Below are positions 19,497 to 32,980 of a DNA stretch of 33,111 bases, one piece after another. The stretch comes from Moraxellaceae bacterium. Lineage in GTDB: Bacteria; Pseudomonadota; Gammaproteobacteria; Burkholderiales; Rhodocyclaceae. The notes under the pieces are model-generated. The model ran no database searches and was not told where the DNA came from. It worked only from the letters and a program-made list of their open reading frames with translations. Location: positions 1 through 33,111 of the forward strand of contig JAVHYF010000044.1 of NCBI GenBank assembly GCA_031119205.1. The letters are read 5' to 3'. Each line of letters starts with the position of its first letter. Position 1 is the first letter of the stretch. A program made the translations under genes and the position numbers.

Positions 19497-19880
19497 TTAC
19501 GCTGCGTCGGCCACGTCCGCTTCCGGACGGTCCAGCAGTTCGACGTAAGCCATCGGAGCATTGTCGCCGACGCGGAAGCCGCACTTCAAGATGCGCAGGT
19601 AGCCACCATTGCGGCCAGCGTAGCGCGGACCCAGCACTTCGAACACCTTGCCGACGATGTCGCGATCGCGGGTGCGGTCGAAAGCCAGACGGCGGTTCGC
19701 CAGACTGGGCTTCTTGCCCAGCGTGATCAGGGGTTCGACGACACGACGCAGTTCCTTGGCCTTCGGCAACGTGGTCTTGATGACCTCGTGCTTCAGCAGG
19801 GAGTTCGCCATGTTGCGCAGCATCGCCGAGCGATGTGCGCTAGTGCGGTTCAGTTTCCGCAGACCGTTACCGTGACGCAT
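19497..19880 (-). CDS. rplQ: 50S ribosomal protein L17
   Basis: The 127-residue protein begins [17 protein letters not shown], the universal L17 N-terminus, and carries [29 protein letters not shown]. It binds 23S rRNA near the exit side of the large subunit. It is the last gene of the minus-strand alpha-type unit, 26 bases after rpoA, as in most proteobacteria. The short Ala/Asp tail (ADVADAA) varies in the family. Confidence 0.98.
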
Positions 19881-19906: not shown

Positions 19907-20887
19907 TTAGCTGACTTTTTCCAGGCCAGCCGGCGGCCAGTTCTCGAGCTTCATGCCCAGCGTCAGGCCACGCGAAGCGAGAACGTCCTTGATTTCATTG
20001 AGCGACTTGCGGCCGAGGTTCGGCGTCTTCAGCAGCTCGGTCTCGGTGCGCTGGATCAGATCACCGATGTAATAGATGTTTTCGGCCTTCAGGCAGTTGG
20101 CCGAACGCACCGTCAGTTCCAGGTCGTCCACCGGGCGCAGCAGGATCGGATCGATGCTGGGCGCACGTTGCACTTCCTGAGCCACCGGCGTGCCTTCCAG
20201 GTCGGCGAACACCGACAGCTGATCCATCAACACGCGCGCGGCGTAGCGGATCGCTTCTTCCGGATCGACAGCACCGTTGGTTTCCAGATCGATGACCAGG
20301 CGATCCAGGTCGGTACGCTGCTCGACGCGAGCGCTTTCAACCTGATAGCTCACACGGCGAACCGGGCTGAACGAAGCGTCCAGCACGATACGGCCGATGA
20401 CCTTGTTGTCACCATTCAACGGACGCACATTGCCCGGCACGTAGCCGCGGCCCTGTTCGACCTTGATCTGCATGTCGATCTTGCCGCCCGGTGCCAGGTG
20501 AGCGATCACATGCTCCGGGTTGATGATCTCGACATCGTGAGTCGCTTCAATATCGCCCGCACGGACAACACCTTCGCCACTCTTGGACAGACGCAGTACC
20601 GTTTCACCACGGTTGTGCAGCTTCAGCACGACACCCTTCAGGTTCAGCAGGATGTCGACCACGTCTTCCCGCACGCCATCCAGCGTGGAGTACTCGTGCA
20701 GCACGCCGTCGATCGTCACTTCCGTCGGCGCGTAGCCAGGCAGCGACGACAGCAGGATGCGACGCAGGGCATTGCCCAGGGTATGACCGAAACCGCGTTC
20801 GAACGGCTCCATCACCACCACGGCGTGAACCGGGGAAATGCTCTGGACATCGATGATGCGGGGTTTCAGCAAATTACTACTCGCCAT
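19907..20887 (-). CDS. rpoA: DNA-directed RNA polymerase subunit alpha
   Basis: The 326-residue protein has the N-terminal dimerisation domain ([31 protein letters not shown]) at about 1-235 and the C-terminal domain at about 250-320 with [21 protein letters not shown], which includes the Arg that contacts UP elements and activators. It assembles the polymerase core. The end, [11 protein letters not shown], resembles betaproteobacterial RpoA from memory. The start has a GAGAGGGA ribosome site. Upstream, 202 bases without rpsD separate it from rpsK, which is unusual. Confidence 0.98.
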
Positions 20888-21089
20888 TGACGATCCCTCT
20901 CTTCAGCACGAGATTCGCAGGTTAGCGCCAGTGTCAGCCGACCATGAGCTCGTTGGCAGTCGGCGACAACTCGATGCGGTAAATCCTTTGTGTGCTTATG
21001 CCGGCAGCGGCATTGTTTCCGGGCTCTCGGAAACCAGCACGGCTCGCGAACCAGCTACTTGCAGGTCGCGAGCCTGACTCTTGCCTGCG
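20888..21089 (-). other. Structured rpsK-rpoA intergenic region in place of rpsD
   Basis: Most proteobacteria carry rpsD (S4, ~206 codons) here; no frame of that length or start is present. The minus strand shows three inverted repeats in transcription order: 21074-21041 (9-base stem GGCTCGCGA/TCGCGAGCC plus two more pairs past a bulge), 21034-21015 (GTTTCCG-6-CGGAAAC) and 20964-20937 (GCCGAC-16-GTCGGC). A short minus-strand frame reads RIELSPTANELMVG and stops. It recalls the RSDLSADINEHLIV part of the E. coli S4 C-terminus (identical at R, L, S, N, E). No T-tract follows the stems, so transcription into rpoA is probably not terminated. Whether this is a relic, a regulatory RNA element or an assembly join is open. 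Confidence 0.6.
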
Positions 21090-21479
21090 TCAGATACGAC
21101 GACGCTTGGGCGGGCGGCAACCGTTGTGCGGAACCGGCGTGATGTCCGTGATCGAGGTGATCTTCAGACCCAGCGCGTTCAATGCACGCACAGCGGACTC
21201 GCGACCCGGGCCCGGGCCCTTGATGCGCACTTCCAGGTTCTTCACGCCACATTCCTGGGCTACCTTGCCGGCAGCTTCGGCGGCGACCTGAGCGGCAAAC
21301 GGGGTGCTCTTGCGCGAGCCCTTGAAGCCTGCGCCACCCGACGTCGCCCACGACAGGGCATTGCCCTGACGGTCGGTGATCGTGATGATCGTGTTGTTGA
21401 AGGACGCGTGCACGTGGGCAATGCCCTCGGCAACGTTCTTTTTGACCTTCTTGCGGACCTTCGCAGCAGTCTTAGCCAT
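21090..21479 (-). CDS. rpsK: 30S ribosomal protein S11
   Basis: The 129-residue protein is colinear with S11: [60 protein letters not shown] and the basic end [10 protein letters not shown]. It forms part of the 30S platform and the mRNA exit region with S7 and S18. It lies 7 bases after rpsM. The next gene should be rpsD, but a 202-base structured gap follows instead. Confidence 0.98.
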
Positions 21480-21486
21480 GTTCTAA

Positions 21487-21852
21487 TTAACCCTTCTTGC
21501 CAGCCATAGTCTTGCGCGGACCCTTGCGAGTACGGGCATTGGTACGGGTACGCTGACCGCGCACCGGCAGGCCACGGCGGTGACGGACACCGCGGTAGCA
21601 ACCGAGGTCCATCAGACGCTTGATGTTCATGGTGATCTCACGACGCAGATCACCCTCGACGGTGAACTTGCCCACCTCATCACGCAGACGTTCCATCTGG
21701 TCTTCGGTCAGGTCTTTCATCTTTGCGCTGCGCGGCACGGAGGCTGCGTCGCAGATCTTCTGGGCACGGGTACGGCCAATGCCGTAGATGGAAGTCAGCG
21801 CGACTTCCGCGTGCTTGTGATTCGGGATGTTGACACCAGCAATCCGGGCCAT
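21487..21852 (-). CDS. rpsM: 30S ribosomal protein S13
   Basis: The 121-residue protein begins [22 protein letters not shown] and ends with the basic tail [14 protein letters not shown] that contacts P-site t[14 protein letters not shown] is the helix-hairpin-helix region, and [19 protein letters not shown] is the core signature. It sits in the 30S head and bridges to L5. It is the first gene of the alpha-type unit, just after a promoter with a perfect -10. Confidence 0.98.
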
Positions 21853-21899
21853 GAGCTCAACCTTTAATTACACGAACGCCGCAAAAAGCGAAACGTTAG

Positions 21900-21928
21900 A
21901 TTATACGACAACAGCAACCGCGCCTCAA
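21900..21928 (-). promoter_or_regulatory. Promoter of the rpsM-rpsK-rpoA-rplQ unit
   Basis: On the minus strand, TTGAGG (21928-21923), a 17-base spacer and a perfect TATAAT (21905-21900). The -35 overlaps the rpmJ stop codon. Transcription would start near 21893, leaving about 40 bases of leader with a weak hairpin (21875-21897) before rpsM. Confidence 0.8.
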
Positions 21929-22038
21929 CCCTGGCGCTGCTTGTGGCGCGGATCTTCGCAGATCACACGCACCACACCCTTGCGACGGATCACTTTGCAC
22001 TTGCGGCAGATCCGCTTCACGGAAGCTTGCACTCTCAT
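21925..22038 (-). CDS. rpmJ: 50S ribosomal protein L36
   Basis: This small gene encodes 37 residues, [20 protein letters not shown] and onward to HKQRQG. The zinc ligands are C11, C14, C27 and H32, the zinc-binding (C+) form of L36. It is a late-assembling 50S protein near the peptidyl-transferase region. It lies 29 bases after infA, and a promoter -35 for rpsM overlaps its stop. The start has AGGAGTGA a few bases upstream. Confidence 0.96.
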
Positions 22039-22067
22039 TTCATCACTCCTCAAAAACCCAGCTGACT

Positions 22068-32668: not shown

Positions 32669-32980
32669 TTACTGCAGCTTGATCTCGACATCCACGCCGG
32701 CGGGCAGGTCCAGCTTCATCAGCGCATCGACCGTCTTGTCGGTCGGGTCGATGATGTCCATCAGGCGTTGATGGGTGCGGATTTCGAACTGGTCGCGCGA
32801 GGTCTTGTTCACGTGCGGCGAACGCAGCACGTTGAAACGTTCGATCTTGGTGGGCAGCGGAACGGGGCCACGAACAACGGCGCCGGTACGCTTCGCGGTG
32901 TCGACGATTTCCAGGGCGGACTGGTCGATCAGGCGATAGTCAAAAGCCTTCAGGCGGATACGGATCTTCTGGTTCTGCAT
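32669..32980 (-). CDS. rpsJ: 30S ribosomal protein S10
   Basis: The 103-residue protein, [20 protein letters not shown], with [20 protein letters not shown] and [23 protein letters not shown], is standard S10 (NusE). It works in the 30S head and in the NusB-NusE antitermination complex. It is separated from tuf by 77 bases and from rplC by a promoter/terminator region, so it may be expressed with the str-type (tuf) unit instead of the S10-type unit. The start has AAGGA upstream. Confidence 0.98.

Follow-up and report, generated by a model that had tools for sequence, protein, structure and literature searches.

The window analysed in this study, a stretch of 33,111 nucleotides, carries on its minus strand the genes of the S10-spc-alpha cluster, which follow the usual order from rpsJ to rplQ with the exception of rpsD, the gene of ribosomal protein S4. 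The names given to the ribosomal genes are a reading of their translations rather than the outcome of a family search. The features that matter for the argument are the following.

32669-32980, minus strand: rpsJ, start of the run in usual order to rplQ (reading of the translation)
21487..21852, minus strand: rpsM (S13), first gene of the alpha operon, its start overlapped by a subthreshold Alpha_RBS match
21090..21479, minus strand: rpsK (S11), upstream neighbour of the spacer, ending CGTATCTGA
20888..21089, minus strand: rpsK-rpoA spacer of 202 bp, rpsD absent, single copy in the genome
20912..21022, minus strand: probable remnant, now decayed, of the 3' end of the C+ rpsD, matching in register about the final 120 bp of the rpsD region in relatives
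19907..20887, minus strand: rpoA, downstream neighbour of the spacer
19497..19880, minus strand: rplQ, end of the alpha operon (reading of the translation)

The initial annotation of this DNA had described an otherwise canonical cluster that lacks rpsD between rpsK and rpoA, and our reading of the translations agrees with it on both points: direct reading of 20888-21089 reveals no S4-like open reading frame within these 202 bp. Comparison with close relatives, which had been proposed as a check, places this absence in context. We infer that the window genome belongs to the same genus as Uliginosibacterium aquaticum. Six of its seven congeners have an rpsD gene of the zinc-binding C+ class (CxxC...CxxxxC) between rpsK and rpoA, in an interval of 675-692 bp, and each has in addition an S4 gene of the zinc-free C- class elsewhere; in one of the same genus (G002) an S4 gene is placed as in U. 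aquaticum NZ_JABCSC020000001.1. Because six of seven same-genus genomes hold rpsD at this position, the absence of rpsD, which is real in the window contig, is confirmed as specific to the window lineage within the genus. The seventh congener, G005, gives no rpsK, rpoA or S4 match, which marks an assembly gap. The same lack of S4, rpsK and rpoA matches is seen in G015, G036 and G070, all rated, like G005, more than 90% complete, and in these four genomes the absence of S4 looks like an assembly effect.

The genome to which the window belongs, as contig C24, measures 4.63 Mb in 90 contigs and is estimated as 96.06% complete with 2.85% contamination. A search of the whole genome with PF00163, the first of the checks suggested earlier, finds one S4 gene, G000:C7:29309-29575, on contig C7, which encodes 203 aa. 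Its product has both S4 Pfam domains complete and aligns over nearly its whole length with uS4 from ribosomes of known structure. The four N-terminal cysteines are missing from it, whereas they are present in all 33 operon S4 proteins extracted (two of the 35 loci yielded none); its one cysteine lies between residues 105 and 112 of the alignment, outside the N-terminal motif. Positions 1-95 of PF00163 span 267 bases in this gene and 288 in each of six congeners' operon genes, so that the domain is seven residues shorter than the congeners' operon S4 and the seven-residue indel of the C+ class is absent. Chen, Roberts and Luthey-Schulten (2009; PMC3087516) have defined the C+ and C- classes, and the part of their paper available to us gives Leu or Phe at residue 15 and Gly or Pro at residue 21 as the signature of C-(IV). 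The window genome's S4 has L15 and G21, both invariant across ten aligned C- S4 proteins. By its sequence it is thus a zinc-free S4 of the C-(IV) class. Of the explanations put forward when the gap was first noted, a second S4 gene that took over is therefore the one that gains support, since the sole S4 is a divergent zinc-free paralogue. That rpsD had simply moved elsewhere is not borne out, for the PF00163 search finds no C+ S4 in the assembly. A relocated operon rpsD would explain why the S4 gene lies outside the operon, but the sole S4 belongs to the C- class, lacks the cysteines and is shorter by seven residues, and it falls among C- genes in the tree described below; we regard relocation as having next to no chance of being correct. 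Since the assembly is incomplete, a second S4 could lie on a missing contig. The C-(IV) protein would be the working S4 of this ribosome, presumably assembled in its 30S subunits.

The third explanation, that the assembly has lost about 600 bases, depends on how far the contigs can be trusted, and so does the related concern that C7 is a contaminant or that rpsD was dropped from the rpsK-rpoA interval in assembly or binning. The assembly is indeed fragmented, the alpha-operon genes tested are missing from many assemblies of the family, and in G041 and G174 rpsD is cut by a contig edge. Against this, the junction lies inside a 33-kb contig and consists of 202 bp of unique sequence without intact rpsD ends. 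G053, four Methylobacillus genomes and two Myxococcales MAGs show the same arrangement, some of these cases being clean. As for C7, its tetranucleotide profile correlates at 0.89 both with the window and with contig C2, while C7, C24 and C2 reach only 0.70-0.81 when compared with 40-kb samples taken from four other genomes. This test is not sharp, because contigs C1 (12.7 kb) and C30 of the same bin agree less closely with its other contigs (0.67-0.82 and 0.76-0.82, respectively). The only HemB match of the genome also lies on C7, with an identity of 82-84% to its six nearest genomes; these span several genera, so that HemB cannot settle the genus. Composition and the sole HemB fit with C7 belonging to the window genome.

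The spacer itself provides a further argument against an artefact. Aligned with the rpsD region of congeners, it matches their last ~120 bp in the correct register, with a score of 44 against G006 and 45.5 against G004, neither of which is reached in 500 shuffles; with the remaining four of the six congeners the score is matched by 27-243 of 500 shuffles. The same alignment shows no rpsD signal at the 5' end of the spacer. With a nucleotide profile built from eight relatives, the spacer alone reaches 6.2 bits (nhmmer, E 4.2e-5), and in a scan together with 3622 genome windows the spacer is outscored only by four windows of the C- S4 gene and two at one other place. Among 3602 genome windows, a set that comprises the genome minus the S4 gene and the alpha-operon region, 16 reach the alignment score of the spacer, none of them in register, and 18 reach its mean score over the six congeners. 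We conclude that the spacer probably carries the decayed 3' end of the C+ rpsD. A misassembly would not produce such an in-register remnant, which therefore argues for a true deletion. Taken with the unique spacer and the same arrangement in other genomes, this disfavours the loss of 600 bases in assembly, and we consider an artefact of any of these kinds very improbable. The profile scan shows no rpsD remnant in the G053 spacer. We also considered the window spacer as a mobile or repeated element and rejected this, as it occurs once in the genome and, among 394 family genomes, only in the window's own (best two candidates per genome, among the matches listed). Its predicted RNA fold has an energy of -83.3 kcal/mol (z -2.6), equalled by 5 of 200 shuffles, and no known RNA family matches it at threshold. 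A wider search with E up to 10 gives, apart from Alpha_RBS at rpsM, weak matches that stay far below their thresholds.

The relationships of the sole S4 point to where it may have come from. In a tree of 48 C- S4 proteins it groups with those of Methyloversatilis universalis and G012 (support 97/91) and next with an Azospira/Azonexus group (98/94), while the C- S4 proteins of the six congeners form a separate clade with Niveibacterium and G019 (100/96). In the RpoA tree the window is sister to the six Uliginosibacterium congeners (92/91), as the deepest branch of the genus. Because the S4 tree conflicts with the RpoA tree, and because the AU test also speaks for it, the window S4 gene is probably a horizontal arrival. 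The other possibility is that the gene on C7 descends vertically from the paralogue native to the genus and evolves fast, so that only the operon C+ gene was lost and no new transfer took place. The deep position of the window in the genus would suit such a history, and so would the long end branch of its S4 (0.44) and the fact that its highest pairwise identity, 66% over 111 columns, is to a partial congener row. However, the tree supports the placement in another clade, and the AU test rejects both versions of vertical grouping, the one in which the window S4 is forced into the C- clade of the genus (p-AU 0.007) and the one that extends this clade to Niveibacterium and G019 (p-AU 0.010). The surroundings of the gene speak against vertical descent as well: a 91-aa open reading frame lies before it and a ferritin-domain gene, confirmed by Pfam, after it, and of 18 other loci compared only that of G012 shows a match to these neighbours. 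We therefore hold vertical descent to be unlikely, and horizontal arrival of the window S4 remains the reading that we prefer.

Some further observations concern the loci of C- S4 genes. Upstream of the window genome's S4, two abutting 91-aa open reading frames without a Pfam match occupy L075 3436-3980, and both resemble one and the same stretch that precedes the S4 gene of G012. Ferritin-type or ExbB/ExbD-like genes lie near the C- S4 genes in L071 (G012), L073, L074 (Uliginosibacterium) and L075 (window genome), these names being a reading with Pfam confirmation only for the ferritin domain of the window genome. Such genes are hinting at a metal-related neighbourhood. The best match to a Zur operator in the 300 bp upstream of the window S4, scored with one form of the consensus, covers 7 of 14 positions and is reached by 196 of 200 shuffles, and no Fur consensus is found upstream of the gene. 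The 2009 paper, in the part available to us, likewise saw no Zur site in the vicinity of paralogues of S4 (PMC3087516). By our reading, the C-C-C-H zinc pattern is kept in L36, the rpmJ product (window 21925-22053); zinc sparing would therefore be incomplete in the ribosome of the window genome.

If the C- S4 has become the working protein of the ribosome, its codon usage may be expected to tell. We scored the codon usage of each C- S4 gene within its own genome between operon genes (rpsM, rpsK and rpoA where found) and background genes; G713 was dropped since its C- gene was not obtained, and G004, G012 and G745 were scored without rpsK as a reference. The window S4 has a z of 1.9 towards the ribosomal-protein style, as high as only 3 of 60 background genes, and the sole C- S4 genes of Methylobacillus have z values of 3.9, 3.8 and 2.3. 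In 12 of the 13 genomes with two copies, by contrast, z lies between -2.4 and 0.8 and the C- S4 is without such usage. The difference between sole-copy and two-copy genomes gives a Mann-Whitney p of 0.020, with three lineages against 13 and Methylobacillus counted once. Two genomes are contrary: the sole C- S4 of G053 shows no shift (z 0.2, from only seven background genes), and in the two-copy congener G006 (L060) the C- S4 is ribosomal-protein-like, with a z of 2.4. In G006 the gene is possibly highly expressed already, before any loss of the C+ gene. Codon usage thus fits with takeover by a sole C- S4, seen in few lineages and with G053 and G006 pointing the other way.

The loss of operon rpsD is not confined to the window lineage. 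S4 matches were found in 324 of 346 family genomes (completeness at least 90%) and in 386 of 399 order genomes. Genomes whose best S4 match is weaker than about 1e-23 were followed up by rpoA and partly by rpsK, as were 20 of 22 family genomes and 1 of 13 order genomes without S4. Within this range, adjacency of rpsK and rpoA confirms the loss in the window, G053 and four Methylobacillus genomes (G084, G421, G732 and M. glycogenes G744), the gap in the last four being about 90 bp by match coordinates. Such an arrangement is also found beyond the order: in the Myxococcales MAGs G748 and G750, rpsK is followed immediately by rpoA, and the only S4 gene of each, of the C- class, lies on a different contig. 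In the RpoA tree G041 is the sister of G053 (100/98), and because G041 still shows the 3' end of an operon rpsD, the loss in G053 is separate from that of the window. Several other candidates were not accepted as losses. G041 and G174 were rejected, their rpsD being cut at a contig edge. In the rest a loss is not shown: a partial S4 match adjoins rpoA on one contig in G587, rpsK and a true rpoA are absent from G019, there is no rpoA match in G196, G246, G384 and G388, and G219 has no S4 match and its rpoA at a contig edge. G241 and G741, in which rpoA is cut by a contig edge, stand outside the count of confirmed losses.

The initial annotation also held that control of the alpha operon must have been rewired. 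Our results leave this claim unsupported either way. The S4 leader model Alpha_RBS (RF00140) matches the window at 21820-21923 with 36.6 bits against a gathering threshold of 38, and no RNA family matches the window at threshold. The alignment has a hairpin with 9 of 10 standard pairs, and most of the other matched letters lie in rpsM codons, as does much of the score in the seven Alpha_RBS alignments that we compared. The whole E. coli leader, as a control, gives 102.7 bits and pairs its whole hairpin. Upstream of the rpsM codons of the window there is no RF00140 match, the E. coli comparison being one of uncut sequence only. Among 37 leader loci, a set that includes the window (L032) and in which L021/L172 and L031/L037 are one region each counted twice, 36 have a match of 22-43 bits and one, L201 of a Myxococcales MAG, has none. 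Four of the 36 exceed the threshold (L039 of G053, L177, L178 and L030). G053, with its operon rpsD lost, reaches 42.7 bits, and relatives with an operon C+ rpsD have 22-42 bits, three of them over the threshold. At eight loci with C- S4 genes no leader match is found. Because much of the Alpha_RBS score sits on rpsM codons, we do not claim an S4 leader for the window.

Replacement of this kind has a published precedent. The available part of the 2009 study describes a 'path B' in which horizontal transfer of a C-(IV) gene is followed by loss of the operon C+ gene, with Methylobacillus flagellatus and Finegoldia magna as examples (PMC3087516). The window genome shows the elements of this route, namely a C-(IV) S4 outside the operon, no operon S4, relatives with an operon C+ gene and conflicting trees. 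M. flagellatus is, like the window organism, a member of the Betaproteobacteria whose C-(IV) S4 gene lies elsewhere and whose operon has lost rpsD, and it is listed with C-(IV) only, in two identical copies, in contrast to the one S4 of the window genome (PMC3087516, in the part available). The four other Methylobacillus genomes observed here share the arrangement. The window differs from Methylobacillus in that its loss is separate, as its congeners keep the C+ gene, in that its S4 stands on another branch of the C- tree, in the visible probable rpsD remnant and in the additional absence of the genus's own C- copy. In Nitrosomonas europaea and the two-copy Rhodocyclaceae the same C- S4 family as in the window occurs and the operon C+ gene is kept; we find two S4 genes in N. 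europaea, which that source, as available, lists with both classes among the multi-copy genomes (PMC3087516). The Alphaproteobacteria, according to the same portion of the paper, have only C-(IV) S4 outside the operon, an end state like that of the window, but theirs is ancient and class-wide while that of the window is lineage-specific. A cyanobacterial source was proposed there for the Methylobacillus C- S4, which differs from the placement in our C- tree. In that tree of 48 sequences, with limited sampling, the betaproteobacterial C- S4 proteins are nearer to Myxococcota and Poribacteria rows than to cyanobacterial rows. As far as the accessible part of Yutin et al. (2012; PMC3353972) goes, all highly diverged paralogues of ribosomal proteins are zinc-motif proteins. 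Our search, in which sources were available in part, found no report of S4 loss in Uliginosibacterium. Thus the route is already published, and the window appears to be a further and informative example in which two resident S4 genes were displaced.

Taken together, we propose that a standalone C-(IV) S4 gene, a relative of the one in Methyloversatilis, was acquired by the window lineage. The incoming protein, encoded at about 29309 of contig C7, would have become the working S4, and the zinc-binding operon rpsD would then have been dispensable. A deletion between rpsK and rpoA may have removed it and left a decaying 3' remnant in the spacer, and the genus's own C- S4 would likewise have been lost from this lineage. 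The parts of this account differ in firmness: the window genome lacks rpsD at the locus and carries a single C- S4 elsewhere, its congeners hold a C+ rpsD in place, and the S4 and RpoA phylogenies disagree, while the remnant and the codon usage support the account more weakly. The order of events, the donor and zinc sparing as an advantage are what we would infer from these results. As a whole, we consider it highly likely that an arriving C-(IV) gene took the place of the operon C+ rpsD as well as of the resident C- S4. That the double displacement is still visible, with a newcomer that ousted C+ rpsD and the C- paralogue of the genus, a carcass left in the operon and codons already shifted, is a reading that we favour by a small degree.

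S4 is a primary binder of 16S rRNA, and its gene serves as a marker in concatenated phylogenies. The history of the window S4 differs from that of its neighbours, and automated pipelines could therefore misplace or miss S4. With this case the published replacement route gains further lineages. The case also suggests a testable rule by which sole C- S4 genes adopt the codon usage of ribosomal proteins and offers a natural system for the question whether S4 feedback governs the alpha operon in these bacteria. If the double displacement is true, S4 would be a component that these bacteria can exchange time and again, its operon gene having disappeared in separate events at least in the lineages of the window and of G053, in Methylobacillus and in one lineage of Myxococcales.
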